DNA of 11,929 nt from Clostridia bacterium. Its GTDB lineage: Bacteria > UBA6262 > WVXT01 > JAUXBS01. Below, piece after piece: positions 2,747 through 9,525 of this stretch; the stretch's first letter is position 1, and every line of letters starts with the position of its first letter. Below the pieces are notes generated by a model. It searched no databases and had not been told where the DNA came from. It worked only from the letters and a program-made list of their open reading frames with translations. The stretch covers positions 1 through 11,929 of the forward strand of contig JAUXDE010000053.1 of assembly GCA_030618495.1 (NCBI GenBank), written 5' to 3'. The translations under genes were made by a program, and so were the position numbers.

Positions 2747-3135
2747 GTTTTGACGCGGACTACAAACTTCTAAAAATCTCACTCTACGATAAGGTTCTTA
2801 TCGCAGTAATACTTATCTTTTCAGTCCTGTCGCTGGTGTCGTTTAAAAACAATGCAGAAAGGCAGAGGAAGGCTCTGGTATACCTTAACGGTGATTTCCT
2901 CCAGGAAATTACCCTTGAAAAGAACGCTATCGTTGACTTGCATCTATATGACGGAAGCATGAAACTTGAGGTGACAGGAGGCGGCATAAAGGTCATTGAA
3001 TCGTCATGCCCGCATAAACTGTGCATCAATAAAGGAGCAATAGGGAAGAGAGGGCAGGCAATAGTATGCGCGCCCAACAGGGTTCTTATAAAAATCAAGG
3101 GAGTAGATTCCAAACACGATGCCATCAGCTATTAA
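2743..3135 (+). CDS. Membrane-anchored NusG domain II-containing protein
   Basis: A 130-residue protein with one N-terminal membrane helix (about residues 17-34, LIAVILIFSVLSLVSF) and an outward-facing domain of the NusG_II type. The diagnostic stretch is SSCPHKLCINKG followed by GQAIVCAPNRVLIKI. Three cysteines (89, 94, 109) sit at family-typical places. The function of this family is not established. It is not the transcription factor NusG, which is longer and has an NGN domain. The gene overlaps trxB by 4 bp and the downstream Gx-type gene by 17 bp. A NusG-II gene next to a Gx transporter gene is a recurrent bacterial pairing. The link to trxB and the paired cysteines make redox sensitivity conceivable, but that is inference. 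Confidence 0.85.
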   Translation: MSFDADYKLLKISLYDKVLIAVILIFSVLSLVSFKNNAERQRKALVYLNGDFLQEITLEKNAIVDLHLYDGSMKLEVTGGGIKVIESSCPHKLCINKGAIGKRGQAIVCAPNRVLIKIKGVDSKHDAISY

Positions 3136-4312
3136 TATCAATCCTTTACATGAAGAAGAAATAAAAAGAATCTCGCGGTGGATTGCCATTGCGGTAATAC
3201 TTCAGGTTTCAGAGTCGCTCATACCGCACCCCTTTCCCGGTATAAGACTGGGACTGGCAAACATGGTCGCATTGATAGTGCTTGCAAACCACGGGTTTTC
3301 TAAGGCGCTTTGCGTTAACCTTATAAGAACCGTACTCAGTTCCTTCATCCTCGGCACGTTCATGTCGCCGGCATTTTTCATGAGTTTTTCAAGCGCCCTG
3401 GCAAGCATGCTTGTCATGGGCCTGCTTTATGCCGCCTCAACAGGAAAAAGCAAGGTTTATTTCAGCCTGACAGGCATAAGCGTGGCGGGAGCTTTCGTTC
3501 ACAACCTAACCCAGCTCGTATTCGCCTATATACTACTTATAAGACATCCCGGTATTTTTGTCCTTCTGCCCTGGCTTTCAATCGGCGGGGTTGTCATGGG
3601 GGTTATTACAGGAATCATTGCCCTTGATGTCACCAGAAAACTCAGGGATCCCATCGGAGGACGGTCGTATGTGTACTACAGCGACGGTACTGAACTGCCC
3701 TTTGAAATGAGAAGTTATTTGCCCGGCAATTCCTTTATTCACAGGTTAAAACCCGAAATAAAGATATTTGCGATTATGCTGATAGCGCTGGCGGTGCTTA
3801 TTGTCAATGACCCGCTGTTCTGCGTGATAATGCTGGCGGTAATAGTCACGGCTATAACTTTAAGCGGAATATCCCTCCTGGAAATACTTTCCGGGTTAAA
3901 GAAGGTGGTATTTCTTATACTTATCTCTTTCTTACTGCCGGTGTTATTTAACAGCGGGGGCGAAACCGTTATAAAGGCAGGTTCAATGGTTATCACGCGG
4001 GAAGGATTGTCCGCGGGAACCCTGTTCGGACTCAGGATAATCGTAATGATGATCTCCGCGTCGCTTATGATGCGGACTTCTTCGTCAATAGAACTCACCC
4101 TAGGGTTTGAAAAGGCGCTGGCTCCCCTCAGGGTTTTTGGCGTAGACCATTACAGGATATCAAGGATTATCTCCATGTCATGGCAGTGGATACCCGAACT
4201 CTGGAGGGAAACAAGGGGAATGATGAAGTTCATGCTCTCCGGCAGGGAAAAGGGAATCAAAAAACGCATCTCTGCCATGAGCGACTTCATAGTCTACTTA
4301 TTCAGGAAATAA
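3119..4312 (+). CDS. Gx transporter family S-component fused to EcfT/CbiQ-like transmembrane component
   Basis: A 397-residue membrane protein made of two parts. Residues about 20-172 match the Gx transporter family, historically named heptaprenyl diphosphate synthase component I, with SESLIPHPFPGIRLGLANMV and FVHNLTQLVFAY. Residues about 205-397 resemble the EcfT/CbiQ transmembrane subunit of energy-coupling factor transporters: the HRLKPEIKIF entry, four or so helices, and a C-terminal amphipathic stretch WRETRGMMKFMLSGREKG where coupling helices normally sit. The coupling region lacks a clean Ala-Arg-Gly motif. No EcfA ATPase lies in the window, so energising subunits would have to come from elsewhere. 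The substrate is unknown. The ATG at 3119 overlaps the NusG-II gene by 17 bp, with AAGGGAG 15 bases upstream, a rather long spacing. The last 44 bp of the gene are duplicated at 6095-6138. Confidence 0.82.
   Translation: MPSAININPLHEEEIKRISRWIAIAVILQVSESLIPHPFPGIRLGLANMVALIVLANHGFSKALCVNLIRTVLSSFILGTFMSPAFFMSFSSALASMLVMGLLYAASTGKSKVYFSLTGISVAGAFVHNLTQLVFAYILLIRHPGIFVLLPWLSIGGVVMGVITGIIALDVTRKLRDPIGGRSYVYYSDGTELPFEMRSYLPGNSFIHRLKPEIKIFAIMLIALAVLIVNDPLFCVIMLAVIVTAITLSGISLLEILSGLKKVVFLILISFLLPVLFNSGGETVIKAGSMVITREGLSAGTLFGLRIIVMMISASLMMRTSSSIELTLGFEKALAPLRVFGVDHYRISRIISMSWQWIPELWRETRGMMKFMLSGREKGIKKRISAMSDFIVYLFRK
4269..4312 (+). repeat. Direct repeat copy 1: 3' end of the Gx-EcfT gene
   Basis: These 44 bases, ending exactly at the TAA stop, match 6095-6138 at 39 of 44 positions, including CGACTTCATAGTCTAC and TTCAGGAAATAA. 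The two copies bracket the nucleotidyltransferase/wHTH unit. Similarity stops right after the stop codon. Upstream, a short second match (4235-4245 against 6065-6075, 9 of 11) hints that the homology once ran further. This is an attL-like arrangement, but no integrase is seen. Confidence 0.85.
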
Positions 4313-4381
4313 AATCCACTCTTAACTTTTCCTCCTATCTCGCATATTTTACCTGATAAATAAATATTTTAAATAAAAACC

Positions 4382-4409
4382 TTGACAAACAAGTTATTTA
4401 GGGTATAAT
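4382..4409 (+). promoter_or_regulatory. Strong sigma-70-type promoter of the nucleotidyltransferase/wHTH operon
   Basis: Consensus -35 TTGACA (4382-4387), 16-bp spacer and consensus -10 TATAAT (4404-4409). Expected transcription start is near 4416, which leaves a leader of about 34 bases. This promoter makes the cassette independent of the operon upstream. Confidence 0.85.
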
Positions 4410-4431
4410 ATAAGTTATAGCACTTATATTA
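4406..4431. promoter_or_regulatory. 26-bp palindromic operator candidate over the -10 box and start site
   Basis: Perfect 10-bp inverted repeat TAATATAAGT (4406-4415) and ACTTATATTA (4422-4431) around a 6-base centre. It covers the last four bases of the -10 box and the expected start site, a position where a bound repressor would block polymerase. The winged-HTH protein encoded by the second gene is the obvious candidate to bind it; that link is inference. Confidence 0.7.
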
Positions 4432-4436
4432 AGGGG
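4431..4436 (+). promoter_or_regulatory. Ribosome binding site candidate of the nucleotidyltransferase gene
   Basis: AAGGGG sits 13 bases before the ATG at 4450, longer than ideal. An out-of-frame ATG at 4440 opens a 5-codon ORF (stop ending at 4457) that overlaps the true start, but it lies only 3 bases from this site, too close for good initiation. Confidence 0.5.
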
Positions 4437-4449
4437 TATATGTTATATT

Positions 4450-5052
4450 ATGCTTAATAATAGAGATATAGAAAAATCGCTTATTCTCTTAGGAAAACGT
4501 CTTGAAATAGAAGGAAATGAAATATTTAATATCGTTGTCTGCGGTGGTTCTGCGCTTATAATTACGGGGCTTATTACCGGAAGGATGTTTACAAAGGATG
4601 TGGATCTTGTAGGGCTCGGTTATAAAGATTTAACAGGGAAACTTCAGGTAAGGGAATGTAGAGAATTGCCAAAAACTCTTGAGAAAGCAGTCAGGCAGGT
4701 TGCCAGGGATTTGGGGCTTGAAGACAACTGGTTAAATACGGATCCAACGAGCCTTGTAAGATTTGGTTTGCCAGATGGCTTCACGGAAAGATTGCAGCTA
4801 AAAACATATGGTAAGTTATTGAACGTGTATTTTACAGGCAGGACTGACCAAATATTTTTTAAGTTATATGCGGCCGTTGACCAGGGGCCAGGTAAACATG
4901 TTGATGACTTAAGGGAATTAAGTCCCGCTGATGAAGAGATAGAGAGTGCGGCAAAGTGGGCAATGAAGCATGATGTCAGTGAAAACTTTCGTAATATTTT
5001 AAAGGATATGTTAAGGAAATTAGGATATGACCAAGTCGCTGAAAGAATTTAA
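4450..5052 (+). CDS. DUF6036-like nucleotidyltransferase, probable effector or toxin of a two-gene module
   Basis: A 200-residue soluble protein with the nucleotidyltransferase-fold signature: GGSAL (residues 32-36) after a hydrophobic strand, then the Asp pair KDVDLV (Asp50, Asp52) that normally binds catalytic metal. The tail, with GPGKHVDDLREL and DEEIESAAKWAMKHD, has the layout of DUF6036 proteins. The family is related to the AbiEii/MenT-type nucleotidyltransferases, several of which modify tRNA or nucleotides as toxins. The substrate here is unknown. The coding sequence is AT-rich compared with the transporter gene upstream. It has its own promoter and palindromic operator, and its 3' end overlaps the wHTH gene by 26 bp, indicating coupled expression. 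The ATG at 4450 is the first in-frame start after the promoter. A housekeeping role in nucleotide transfer cannot be excluded. Confidence 0.78.
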   Translation: MLNNRDIEKSLILLGKRLEIEGNEIFNIVVCGGSALIITGLITGRMFTKDVDLVGLGYKDLTGKLQVRECRELPKTLEKAVRQVARDLGLEDNWLNTDPTSLVRFGLPDGFTERLQLKTYGKLLNVYFTGRTDQIFFKLYAAVDQGPGKHVDDLRELSPADEEIESAAKWAMKHDVSENFRNILKDMLRKLGYDQVAERI

Positions 5053-6061
5053 AGATTCTTATTTGGAACTATTAATAGGTTTACTCTGGAGGCAATGGTC
5101 TTCATTGGGAGTGGCGGGATATACAGACACCGGGGATAGTTGGATTATTGACCCGGAAGCGCTTTTTCTGTTTACTTGCAGTATAGGGCGTTATGATGCG
5201 CGGCTATTTGACGAAGCGCTTGACTGGATTAGCGCAAACGGGAATTTCATGAATATTCAGCGGCTGAGAAACATTCTGAAAAAAGAAGAATTTTCAGGAA
5301 GCAGGGTTTTATCAGCGATATCCGGGATTATGGAAAAAAGGACCAGGTCGTATAAATGGAAAATATTATCCGGGTTCAGTCAAAATAAAACCATTGATAA
5401 TGAAGAACCTCTTTTTTTCTACAAAGATGGAAAGCACATTGAAAGCTATGGGGAGCAAGATGATGATTTTAAGGCATATGGATTTATCCGGGGGCAAAAA
5501 GAATTCTCCCGCAAGACGCAATCCGTAAACATGGCAAAGAATTCAGGGTTGCTCTTTAAACTGCGTACTTTGTTTGGCGTGAATGCCAGAAGTGAGATTA
5601 TCCTTTACCTGCTTACACATGGAAGGGCTCATCCGAGTTTAGTAGCCAGGGAAATGTATTATTCTCAAAAGGCGGTTCAGGATACACTTGTTGAAATGGC
5701 AAAATCAGGATTGGTTCTTGTCAGTTCCGTGGGCAAAGAAAAACAATATATACTGCCCAGGGATAAATGGTTTGAATTTCTGGAATGTCATGATGAACAA
5801 CCAAAATGGTTGAATTGGGCGCTGATATTAAGAACTCTTGAAAAAATATGGATGAAACTTAATGACAATAAGATACTTGGATATGATCCATTACTGCAAT
5901 CATCGGAACTAAGAGTTTTAATGCAGGAAGTAAGACCGAAGATAGAGAATGCGGGTTTTTCGGAAGTACTCACTGATGACAGGTTGCATCCTGGGGAGAA
6001 TTATTCTGTGATATTTTTCCGGGATGTAAAAAGGTTACTAGAGGCCATTTCAAACAATTAG
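5027..6061 (+). CDS. Winged helix-turn-helix protein, partner of the upstream nucleotidyltransferase
   Basis: A 344-residue soluble protein. The N-terminal 110 residues are mostly helical, with LLIGLLWRQWSSLGV, an EALFLFTCSIGRYDARLFDEALDWI-type stretch split over residues 44-68, and NIQRLRNIL. A linker follows. Residues about 183-245 form a winged helix: NARSEIILYLL, then HPSLVAREMYYSQKAVQDTL as helix-turn-helix and GLVLVSSVGKEKQYILP as the wing. The C-terminal 90 residues are helical and of unknown role. By context it is probably the regulator and antitoxin of the nucleotidyltransferase, acting at the palindrome at 4406-4431. It is not recognisably AbiEi, and the gene order (nucleotidyltransferase first) differs from AbiE. 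The ATG at 5027 has AAGGA at 5013-5017 inside the upstream gene. Base composition is AT-rich like its partner. Confidence 0.75.
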   Translation: MTKSLKEFKDSYLELLIGLLWRQWSSLGVAGYTDTGDSWIIDPEALFLFTCSIGRYDARLFDEALDWISANGNFMNIQRLRNILKKEEFSGSRVLSAISGIMEKRTRSYKWKILSGFSQNKTIDNEEPLFFYKDGKHIESYGEQDDDFKAYGFIRGQKEFSRKTQSVNMAKNSGLLFKLRTLFGVNARSEIILYLLTHGRAHPSLVAREMYYSQKAVQDTLVEMAKSGLVLVSSVGKEKQYILPRDKWFEFLECHDEQPKWLNWALILRTLEKIWMKLNDNKILGYDPLLQSSELRVLMQEVRPKIENAGFSEVLTDDRLHPGENYSVIFFRDVKRLLEAISNN

Positions 6062-6300: not shown

Positions 6301-6428
6301 TAATAATTCACATTTGTGGTACGAATAAGTAATATTATTTCACGTATATGGCACGTATAATTAATAATATTTCACATAATTAGCAGAAATATCTTGACTT
6401 TTTTCACATTTTATGGTAGTATAGAAAG
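6301..6428. repeat. Four degenerate 32-bp tandem repeats upstream of the ATPase gene
   Basis: A TTCAC core recurs with CAC starting at 6309, 6341, 6373 and 6405, exactly 32 bp apart. Units 6301-6332 and 6333-6364 agree at 24 of 32 bases. The third and fourth units are weaker, although the fourth keeps CACAT and TGGTA. The last unit contains the -10 box of the ATPase promoter, so the array may be a set of operator sites spaced by about three helical turns. AT-richness inflates the similarity. There are no spacers, so this is not CRISPR. Confidence 0.5.
6394..6422 (+). promoter_or_regulatory. Promoter of the DUF4143-type ATPase gene, apparently giving a leaderless transcript
   Basis: -35 TTGACT (6394-6399), 17-bp spacer, -10 TAGTAT (6417-6422). 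The expected start site, about 7 bases after the -10 box, falls at or next to the ATG at 6430, so the mRNA would have essentially no leader. The TTG at 6394 that could extend the ORF is itself the -35 box. Confidence 0.65.
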
Positions 6429-6429
6429 T

Positions 6430-7743
6430 ATGAAACGTGATATTTATACTAATTTAGTTAAATGGAAGAATTCCAGCCGACGAAAACCACTGATCTTTCA
6501 GGGCGCAAGGCAGGTAGGGAAAACCTACATCTTGAAAGAATTCGGCAAGAATGAATACCAGAATACTGCTTATTTTAATTTTGAGGAGGATTCTACATTA
6601 AATGATTTTTTTAAAGGGAAACTTAACCCGGTAAAAATCATTAAGAAATTATCAATTTATTTAGAGAAAGAAATCTTACCTGAGAAAACCCTAATCATTT
6701 TTGACGAGATTCAAAATTCACCCGAAACCTTGACCAGTTTAAAATATTTTAACGAGAATGCCAATCAATTTCATGTTGCTACAGCGGGTTCTTTACTTGG
6801 AATAAAAGTTGGGCAATCTGCTCCATTCCCGGTAGGCAAAGTAAACTTTCTAAATCTTTATCCATTTACTTTTGGTGAATACCTTGATGGTATTAATAAA
6901 TCAAGGATTCGTCAGTTCCTGAATAGCATTACAACTCTGGAACCGATTGAAGAAGGGTTTCATAATGAACTAATTGAAGCTTTGAAAATGTATTACTTTG
7001 TTGGAGGAATGCCGGAGGCAATATTACAATACAAAAAAGACGAAAACCTTGAAGAAGTAAGAACCGTTCAAAAAGAGATACTATCAGCATATGCAATGGA
7101 TTTCTCAAAACATGCAAAAAAACCTGACGCAATAAAAAGCACAAATACCTGGAACTCCATTCCTGTACAATTGGCTAAAGAAAACAAAAAATTCATGTTT
7201 TCGGAGTTGTCAAAGAACGCAAGGAATAGAGATTATAATGAATCAATCAGGTGGCTTGTGGATGCTGGATTGGTTTATCAATGTTTTAACATTAAGACCC
7301 CGAGGTTGCCTTTAAGCGGATATAAGAAGAACAATATTTTTAAGCTTTACCTGCTTGATACGGGGCTATTAGGCGCTATGTTGGAGTTGTCATACAAAAC
7401 AGTTGTTAAAGGTAATCAACTATTTTCAGAATATAATGGCGCATTTACAGAAAACTACGTTGCCCAGGAACTAATTGCTAATAATCACGGAGAACTTTAT
7501 TACTGGTCAAGCAATAGTATTGCTGAAGTTGATTTCATAATACACTATGACGGATATGTTTATCCCCTTGAGGTAAAATCAGGAGTAAGTACCAAGAAAA
7601 AAAGCCTCAAAATATATGGTAATAAATATAATGTTCCTATCCTCGCCCGTTCAACCTTAATGAATTTTAAGCAGGATGGCAGGATTTGCAATTATCCATT
7701 ATATGCTATTTCACATTTCCCTAAAATTAGCATGATTAAATAG
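6430..7743 (+). CDS. AAA family ATPase with DUF4143-type C-terminal domain
   Basis: A 437-residue protein of typical length for this widespread, mostly uncharacterised group. The N-terminal P-loop ATPase domain has Walker A GARQVGKT (residues 25-32), Walker B LIIFDE (88-93), the ATAGSLLG segment (118-125) and the family-typical FPVGKVNFLNLYPFTFGEYL. The C-terminal DUF4143 domain carries a restriction-nuclease-like pattern: AEVDF (Asp368) followed by PLEVKSG (Glu381, Lys383), preceded by ENYVAQELI. Such genes are often scattered in accessory regions of bacteria and archaea, and a role in mobile-element or defence biology has been suggested but not shown. The ATG at 6430 is chosen over the upstream TTG because the TTG coincides with the -35 box. 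The gene is AT-rich, unlike the patatin gene that starts 4 bp after its stop. Confidence 0.9.
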   Translation: MKRDIYTNLVKWKNSSRRKPLIFQGARQVGKTYILKEFGKNEYQNTAYFNFEEDSTLNDFFKGKLNPVKIIKKLSIYLEKEILPEKTLIIFDEIQNSPETLTSLKYFNENANQFHVATAGSLLGIKVGQSAPFPVGKVNFLNLYPFTFGEYLDGINKSRIRQFLNSITTLEPIEEGFHNELIEALKMYYFVGGMPEAILQYKKDENLEEVRTVQKEILSAYAMDFSKHAKKPDAIKSTNTWNSIPVQLAKENKKFMFSELSKNARNRDYNESIRWLVDAGLVYQCFNIKTPRLPLSGYKKNNIFKLYLLDTGLLGAMLELSYKTVVKGNQLFSEYNGAFTENYVAQELIANNHGELYYWSSNSIAEVDFIIHYDGYVYPLEVKSGVSTKKKSLKIYGNKYNVPILARSTLMNFKQDGRICNYPLYAISHFPKISMIK

Positions 7744-7747
7744 AACA

Positions 7748-8620
7748 ATGAAAAAAAGAAATAATATCATACTATTCCTGGCGGTTTTAACAGCGTTTTC
7801 CTTTTGCGGGTGCGCATCTACCGGTAAAAGGAAAGGTGGTTCCGCGAAGGTAGCGTTGGTCTTTGGAGGGGGCGCCGCGCGGGGATTCGCGCACGTTGGG
7901 GTAATAAGGGTACTCGAACAGGAAGGAATCCCGGTGGACATGATAATAGGGACCAGCGTGGGCAGCCTGATAGGCGCGATGTATTCTGCCATGCCCGATA
8001 GTTTCGAACTGGAATGGAAGGCTTTTAAACTCAAAAAGAAAGATATATTCGACTTTTCCCTGCTATCCTCCAAGACAGGCCCCATAAACGGTGACAGGCT
8101 GGAAAAATTTGTAAAAAGTATTATCCCGTCAGACGATATTAAGGACCTTAAAATCCCGTTCTACGCGATTGCGGCAGACCTCAATACGGGCGAAAGAATA
8201 ATACTTGACAGGGGTCCGGTATCAAAAGCGGTGCGCGCCAGCTGTTCCATCCCCGGCGTCTTTACTCCGCTCCGCTACATGGACAGGACCATGGTGGATG
8301 GAGGGATTCTTGGGAATATAGCCCCGGAAGTGGCAAGGCTCCTGGGAGCGGACATAATAATAGCCGTCGATATAGGTAGAGATATTACTAACTACGATGT
8401 AGATAATGTCATAAAGATAACCATGCAGGCCATGAAGATAATGAACGCCAAGATAACCAGGTATAAAATGAAGGAAATAGACGTGCTGATAGAACCCGAA
8501 GTCGGGGGCGTGAAAATGATGGACTTCTCACAGAAAAAAAAGTGTATGGCCGCGGGTATAAAGGCAACGAAGGAAGCCATTCCTAAAATTAAATCCATCC
8601 TGAAAAAATACAAAAAATAA
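7748..8620 (+). CDS. Patatin-like phospholipase (RssA-like), predicted lipoprotein
   Basis: 290 residues with all patatin landmarks: the oxyanion loop GGGAARG (residues 40-46), the nucleophile elbow GTSVG with Ser70, and the dyad aspartate in VDGG (Asp184). The family hydrolyses acyl esters of phospholipids or related lipids. The N terminus is a short basic, hydrophobic signal (MKKRNNIILFLAVLTAFSF) ending in FCGC, a non-canonical lipobox with Cys22 (or Cys20) as the likely lipidated residue. This places the enzyme on the membrane rather than in the cytoplasm as for typical RssA. Codon use is richer in G/C than the ATPase gene before it. The ATG at 7748 fits the signal peptide, but no Shine-Dalgarno sequence precedes it. 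Only 4 bp separate it from the ATPase stop, so it either depends on coupling or lost its own leader at an insertion junction. Confidence 0.92.
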   Translation: MKKRNNIILFLAVLTAFSFCGCASTGKRKGGSAKVALVFGGGAARGFAHVGVIRVLEQEGIPVDMIIGTSVGSLIGAMYSAMPDSFELEWKAFKLKKKDIFDFSLLSSKTGPINGDRLEKFVKSIIPSDDIKDLKIPFYAIAADLNTGERIILDRGPVSKAVRASCSIPGVFTPLRYMDRTMVDGGILGNIAPEVARLLGADIIIAVDIGRDITNYDVDNVIKITMQAMKIMNAKITRYKMKEIDVLIEPEVGGVKMMDFSQKKKCMAAGIKATKEAIPKIKSILKKYKK

Positions 8621-8668
8621 ATAATAAGAATTTATGAATTAAAAGGCAAGAGGGGGCTGTACGTTAAC

Positions 8669-8767
8669 ATGATAAGTCATGGAAGCAGTATATGTACTCC
8701 AATAAAACCAAAATGTAATATATGTATAATAAAGAAATATTGTGAGCGCAAGGAGGCGGAACAATGA
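8669..8767 (+). pseudogene. Isolated iron-sulfur cluster loop of endonuclease III (nth remnant or small Fe-S protein)
   Basis: A 32-codon ORF beginning MISHGSSICTPIKPK, whose four cysteines have spacing C-x6-C-x2-C-x5-C (ICTPIKPKCNICIIKKYC). This is the exact [4Fe-4S] loop pattern at the C terminus of endonuclease III and related HhH-GPD glycosylases, including the preceding HG. The helix-hairpin-helix and catalytic parts are absent: the frame upstream runs straight into the patatin stop codon. Its TGA overlaps the start of the next gene (ATGA), so the pair may once have been an nth/glycosylase operon. A GAGGGGG stretch (8650-8656) 12 bases upstream of the ATG would allow weak translation. 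Most likely a truncated gene whose tail was kept because it carries the next gene's ribosome binding site. A functional mini Fe-S protein is less likely. Confidence 0.7.
8750..8756 (+). promoter_or_regulatory. Ribosome binding site of the glycosylase-like gene
   Basis: AAGGAGG, a near-perfect Shine-Dalgarno sequence, lies 7 bases before the ATG at 8764. It is embedded in the last codons of the endonuclease III remnant and fixes the start of the next gene. Confidence 0.85.
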
Positions 8768-9432
8768 GGTTGAAATCAATTAAAGATATTCTTAGTTGCA
8801 ATACTTGTAAAAGATATGCCCCCGGTTCATTACCCATAGCAGACGGTTGTCCCGAGGCAAACATCTTAATATTAACCCAAGACCCAGCTCCGAAGGTGCA
8901 GGAATACATGAATAAACAACCGGGGCCACGGTTTATATACGATCCCAATAAAAATATATTTGCGAACAGAATCAGTAATTACTTATTAAACCAAGAACAA
9001 GAAAACTATAATCCGCGCAGTGCTACATACATCGATGGATTTACGGTAAATAATTTCACATGGCTCCACACGGCAAATGTTCATGTTGGCAATAGTATAC
9101 CAAAACTAAGAAAACCGGGAATCCACCTGAGGGAAAAACACTTACCGGCAGTCACAGAAGAAATGCTGGAAAATCACAAGAAAGGAATATTACTTATTGT
9201 ATTAGGTTGCCCCGCAGCTAAAAGCGCGCAGAATGATTGGGATAAACCAATGATTGAGTTTATAAAAGACGGTATAAACATAGACTACCTGGATAAAAGA
9301 GTTGAAATTATGGTTGGTTATCATCCGGGTAAAAACGTATGGGATAAAATGAAGAAGGAAGTAAGGCCGGAAGCGCAGAAACAAGTCCGGAAAATAAGGG
9401 AAAAAGTTAAGGAATATCTGGCAGACAAATAA
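8764..9432 (+). CDS. Divergent uracil-DNA glycosylase superfamily protein
   Basis: 222 residues. The order of motifs follows the uracil-DNA glycosylase fold. An N-terminal Cys pair (Cys12, Cys15) is followed by a strand and loop ILILTQDPAP (34-43), comparable to GQDPYH of family 1 or GEAPG of family 4. Then come LHTANVHVGN (101-110), LLIVLGCPAAKSA (143-155), which resembles the conserved LG..A.K segment, and GYHPGKN (185-191) in place of the HPSP leucine loop. Family 4 enzymes bind a [4Fe-4S] cluster through four cysteines. Here Cys12, Cys15, Cys29 and Cys149 exist but are not spaced as in that family, so cluster binding is uncertain. The catalytic residues are also non-standard, so activity and substrate are unknown. 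Its start overlaps the endonuclease III remnant, placing two base-excision repair families together. AT-rich coding sequence. Confidence 0.6.
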   Translation: MRLKSIKDILSCNTCKRYAPGSLPIADGCPEANILILTQDPAPKVQEYMNKQPGPRFIYDPNKNIFANRISNYLLNQEQENYNPRSATYIDGFTVNNFTWLHTANVHVGNSIPKLRKPGIHLREKHLPAVTEEMLENHKKGILLIVLGCPAAKSAQNDWDKPMIEFIKDGINIDYLDKRVEIMVGYHPGKNVWDKMKKEVRPEAQKQVRKIREKVKEYLADK

Positions 9433-9490
9433 CCCGCCACATCTAACCCCCGCAACAAAAACAAAGGAACCGCTAAACTCTATGCAGAAA

Positions 9491-9525
9491 AAGTGGCTGA
9501 AGGGGCGGGTTTGCTAAACCCACTT
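9491..9525. terminator. Nested hairpins between convergent genes
   Basis: GGGTTT (9507-9512) pairs with AAACCC (9516-9521) over a 3-base loop. AAGTGG (9491-9496) can pair with CCACTT (9520-9525), and AACCCGCC (9431-9438) with GGCGGGTT (9504-9511), as alternatives. The position, between the + strand glycosylase gene and the - strand MATE gene, suits a two-way terminator, but neither strand has a clear T-tract after the stem. Confidence 0.35.

Follow-up and report, generated by a model that had tools for sequence, protein, structure and literature searches.

An endonuclease III 3' end, probably a gene remnant, ahead of a rare putative uracil-DNA-glycosylase-like gene in a Clostridia bacterium

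In endonuclease III (Nth, HhH-GPD superfamily), the [4Fe-4S] cluster is held by the six-barrel/cluster domain. The window, i.e. the whole stretch of 11,929 nucleotides which we analysed (contig JAUXDE010000053.1 of the Clostridia bacterium assembly GCA_030618495.1), contains a fragment with the same exact C-x6-C-x2-C-x5-C loop, the same (L/M)ISHG helix end before the loop, and the same typical short C-terminus past the last cysteine. It keeps only the last 36 or so of about 210 residues: the HhH motif, the catalytic Lys/Asp and the six-helix barrel are missing, and there is no PF00730 match. The gene behind the fragment can be compared with the uracil-DNA glycosylase superfamily (PF03167). Its protein matches the profile weakly over most of the domain; its LTQDP resembles motif 1 and its GYHPGK motif 2, and like UDG families 4 and 5 it has a CxxC near the N-terminus, although only three cysteines (C12, C15, and C29), not four, are kept in both copies of the protein. 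A third parallel is given by truncated gene tails at the junctions of horizontally acquired DNA. In the window, too, a partial, apparently foreign end and an intact, apparently foreign gene lie between intact host genes, and the sister genome (G001) repeats the pattern with the tail of a different gene. In the window, the leftover is a complete, recognisable metal-binding loop which ends in a coupled stop/start. The relevant features are:

7748..8620, + strand: patatin-like phospholipase gene (PF01734, E 1.6e-34)
8650..8767, + strand: 3'-terminal part of an nth-like (HhH-GPD) gene, comprising some 36 codons and the stop (about 110 bases), assigned by PF10576, a PDB endonuclease III match and a leave-one-out profile
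8669..8767, + strand: 32-residue ORF, starting at ATG 8669
8693..8743, + strand: [4Fe-4S] loop C-x6-C-x2-C-x5-C (PF10576 profile positions 1-17)
8750..8756, + strand: AAGGAGG, Shine-Dalgarno sequence of the glycosylase-like gene, located by sequence inside the last nth codons
8764..9432, + strand: divergent, putative uracil-DNA-glycosylase-like gene (222 residues; PF03167 sub-threshold), whose start overlaps the nth stop

By its sequence, the fragment is a genuine nth 3' end. The 32-residue ORF reads MISHGSSICTPIKPKCNICIIKKYCERKEAEQ, and its cysteine pattern, which is exact and in frame, occurs once in the six frames of the window, as compared with 0.01 occurrences expected from first-order Markov windows. 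The Pfam profile EndIII_4Fe-2S (PF10576) scored 24.4 bits (E 3.5e-5) and passed its cut-off of 20.5 bits; endonuclease III chains of the PDB matched with an E-value of 1.4e-5 across 30 residues, and weaker PDB matches were E. coli Nth, MutY, and an archaeal mismatch glycosylase. These values agree with the first-pass annotation, which had noticed the exact in-frame Fe-S loop pattern of endonuclease III. By means of leave-one-out profiles, the fragment was also compared with 33 intact enzymes of other genomes. The loop by itself outscored 30 of these 33; it has no decay at all, and its frame is without stop. The last 30 residues of the fragment reached 58.8 bits (median of intact nth: 59.2), whereas the 24 residues before the loop gave 8.9 bits (median 37), which is near the bottom of the intact enzymes. 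Because of this difference, the nth-derived part is taken to begin at about 8650.

The nth-like 3' end consists of residues closing with GLYVNMISHGSS, followed by the [4Fe-4S] loop and the natural C-terminus CERKEAEQ before the stop. Upstream of about 8650, some 30 nt past the patatin stop, similarity to nth is no longer clearly recognisable; this 5' limit is approximate, and the side of the cut was located only roughly. The patatin stop codon (TAA, 8618-8620) shares the reading frame of the loop and constitutes the upstream limit of the loop's open frame, which comprises only 48 codons after this stop; the HhH-GPD domain with the catalytic Asp (and Lys) is absent there. The earlier statement was that only 32 codons are left and that the DNA upstream ends at the patatin stop; the frame is open back to the TAA. 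Owing to the shared frame, readthrough of the patatin stop would yield patatin with the Fe-S loop attached; the agreement in frame is probably a coincidence (1 in 3). GAGGGGG (8650-8656), upstream of ATG 8669, is a weak ribosome-binding-site candidate. At the downstream junction, the stop of the loop ORF (TGA, 8765-8767) overlaps the next start (ATG, 8764-8766) in the form ATGA, and AAGGAGG is a perfect ribosome-binding site 7 nt ahead of ATG 8764. Both had been pointed out before as an ORF which overlaps the glycosylase-like start and holds its ribosome binding site, and both are present. At the ends, neither direct repeats nor target duplications were detected.

The genome to which the window belongs is a metagenome-assembled genome of 179 contigs, which is 98.1% complete. 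A search of it with the profile PF00730 gave no match, i.e. neither nth nor mutY was found, whereas 14 of 14 control genomes matched; as the genome is 98% complete, this absence is not absolute. Looking for an intact nth elsewhere in this genome, as the first-pass annotation had suggested, therefore yielded none, and the loop of the window is the sole PF10576 match. A split enzyme, with the HhH-GPD core encoded elsewhere, was considered and rejected on the same search. The sister genome (76% complete) has no PF00730 match either; both genomes are metagenome-assembled and incomplete, and loci absent from the sister may simply be missing. One intact nth each was found in the remaining genomes of the phylum that were compared (G002-G005), which belong to the same order and another family. 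In none of the relatives did we find a full nth ahead of the same glycosylase-like gene, the other arrangement that had been proposed for a search. There is no second copy of the nth fragment, and its 44-residue tail had no matches in phages and plasmids. A search of the phylum of genome G344 for a closer nth donor gave, at best, a sequence of 47% identity, which belonged to a full-length nth at a locus of its own. The loop matches listed from 386 genomes include just one further loop in a frame of less than 170 residues, that of the G036 nth (locus 888-1690), where a frame change splits the gene into frames of 201 and 64 codons.

The assignment of the 222-residue protein as UDG-like is putative and is based on a sub-threshold profile match together with the motifs: PF03167 scored 14.5 bits for the copy in the window and 19.4 bits for the sister copy, both under the cut-off of 24.3. 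NCBIfam and PHROG had no match to the protein, and an AlphaFold2 model built from the two sequences reached a mean pLDDT of 32.6, which is too low for a structure search. The gene represents a rare family, which so far comprises two genomes; the only other copy is that of the sister, which is 83% identical. A match in a Bacteroides plasmid (E 0.06) was discarded as chance-level and is annotated as a peptidase. The dN/dS value of the gene between both genomes is about 0.2, which indicates that the protein itself is maintained. Behind the gene, an inverted repeat (9430-9512) is formed by AACCCGCC and GGCGGGTT, which are about 65 nt apart and fold at -19.8 kcal/mol. An integron cassette with an attC-like site at this position was rejected, as the 3' inverted repeat is not common to the sister copy.

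In the sister genome, the glycosylase-like gene (locus 3819-4514) lies between larC and nikR. These two genes are adjacent without an insert in the genome of the window, and the sister locus is thus an insertion. The order is larC, the tail of a winged helix-turn-helix (wHTH) gene, the glycosylase-like gene, decayed gene fragments, and nikR. The tail starts 1-2 nt past the larC stop and encodes the C-terminal wHTH of an ATP-binding protein, which is itself cut (HTH_24, E 2.6e-8); it matches the final residues, at the very end, of a plasmid CDS of 1344 nt. The DNA separating the UDG-like gene from nikR (2960-3818) looks like decayed pieces of short genes, one of which resembles by eye a BrnT-type toxin-antitoxin fragment. 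DNA similarity between the two genomes is confined to the gene, from ACAATGA at its start to its last codons. Upstream of the gene nothing is shared: the sister copy lacks the loop, and no clear Shine-Dalgarno sequence precedes it.

Divergence and composition agree in that the glycosylase-like gene is best read as horizontally acquired. Its dS value between the two genomes is 0.44, with 24% differences at 4-fold sites, as opposed to dS values of 1.1-2.0 and 44-58% differences for larB, larC, larE, and nikR. The GC3 content of the glycosylase-like gene is 0.37-0.38, a foreign codon bias as opposed to about 0.5-0.6, and that of the loop ORF is 0.25; patatin, MATE, and trxB of the window have 0.55-0.67. 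The foreign-looking composition runs continuously through the fragment and the gene.

The nth tail is, in all likelihood, a gene remnant lying on foreign DNA that was joined, together with the glycosylase-like gene, between host genes. According to this reading, the foreign stretch would consist of the glycosylase-like gene and, ahead of it, the last 36 or so codons of the donor's nth-like gene, and would have entered the interval that separates the patatin gene from a MATE transporter gene. In the donor, nth and the glycosylase-like gene probably formed a translationally coupled operon, given the ATGA overlap and the AAGGAGG inside the nth tail. Such a donor operon, of which only the last nth codons would have arrived or survived, is inferred from the ATGA overlap alone; a search for a donor with a full nth plus the glycosylase-like gene, covering genome contigs, viral contigs, phages, plasmids and up to 386 genomes, returned just the sister copy. 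The glycosylase-like gene is mobile and foreign; in both genomes it would have arrived next to a truncated 3' end, each time that of an unrelated gene. The lack of decay in the loop, of a stop in its frame, and of repeats or target duplications speaks against a remnant; on the present reading, the intact loop would reflect a recent arrival and not selection for a peptide. Presumably, no functional Fe-S protein is produced from the fragment, which may now serve solely as the source of the ribosome-binding site for the glycosylase-like gene.

Alternatively, the short ORF could be a regulatory leader, kept since its translation couples to the glycosylase-like gene and sets the expression of the latter, whatever the amino acids of the ORF. 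The ATGA overlap and the Shine-Dalgarno sequence within the ORF fit this proposal, which is also compatible with an origin as a remnant. Yet the sister copy does without such an ORF and without a clear Shine-Dalgarno sequence, and the folding of the leader RNA is not unusual (z -1.36); we regard such a role as possible, if unlikely.

A quite improbable alternative is that a deletion truncated the native, vertically inherited nth of the organism where it stood and fused its last codons to the patatin region, with the glycosylase-like gene being already adjacent. Some loss did occur, as the genus has lost nth and the related family keeps it, and the loop residues resemble those of the relatives (CxxxKPKCxxCIxxKxC). 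However, the nth genes of these relatives sit beside the ligD-phosphoesterase and pyruvate kinase genes and not at patatin or the glycosylase-like gene; the GC3 of the fragment deviates from that of the local host genes (0.25 versus 0.55-0.67); and the identity of the fragment to the nth of the relatives (41-47%) does not exceed that to unrelated phyla (up to 58%). The first-pass annotation had offered, as one of two readings, that an nth-like gene was cut precisely here. What stands of this claim is the true nth 3' end, along with the lack of any other HhH-GPD in the genome and the intact genes of relatives in the order; a native gene cut in place does not agree with the GC3 of 0.25, the position of nth in the relatives and the different locus of the sister gene.

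The other reading offered at that stage, a stand-alone Fe-S peptide, fares worse. The ORF would be translated from ATG 8669, bind a cluster and act in trans, with the glycosylase-like protein as a possible target. In its favour, the ORF possesses an ATG of its own, is coupled to the gene that follows, and retains all four cysteines along with the HG...KPKC context; the loop scores above 30 of the 33 intact enzymes. The first helix and the core of the six-barrel/cluster domain of endonuclease III are missing in the window, however, and the sister lacks the peptide although purifying selection acts on its glycosylase-like gene (dN/dS about 0.2). Nor does it recur: among the listed matches of the 386 genomes, the other short frame is the frame-split nth. 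A literature search for a stand-alone endonuclease III loop found nothing. We consider this peptide very improbable, and the specific version in which a translated, cluster-binding peptide was recruited from the nth tail and is co-produced with the glycosylase-like protein is extremely so. An assembly artefact, i.e. unrelated contigs misjoined at the fragment, can hardly be credited: although the genome is fragmented (179 contigs) and the window is one of its contigs, the stop/start overlap with its well-placed Shine-Dalgarno sequence is a natural junction, the foreign composition is continuous over fragment and gene, and for other genes of the contig, the same genus provides homologues (98% over 48 residues at a contig end).

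The window contains further low-GC genes. Directly upstream of patatin (6394-7743), an AAA_14/DUF4143 ATPase is encoded, which matches the PADLOC candidate single-gene defence family PDC-S01 with an E-value of 1e-168. At 4450-6061, an overlapping pair encodes a DUF6036 nucleotidyltransferase-like protein and a MarR/HTH-containing protein; it looks like another acquired accessory module and is possibly toxin-antitoxin-like.

With the nth tail read as a remnant, the locus illustrates that an ORF can carry a metal-binding motif in perfect conservation and still be no gene; therefore, motif matches in very short ORFs need to be checked against intact relatives. The genus of the window appears to lack nth and mutY, and a rare glycosylase-like gene appears to have been gained independently in two sister species, in each case behind the tail of another gene.
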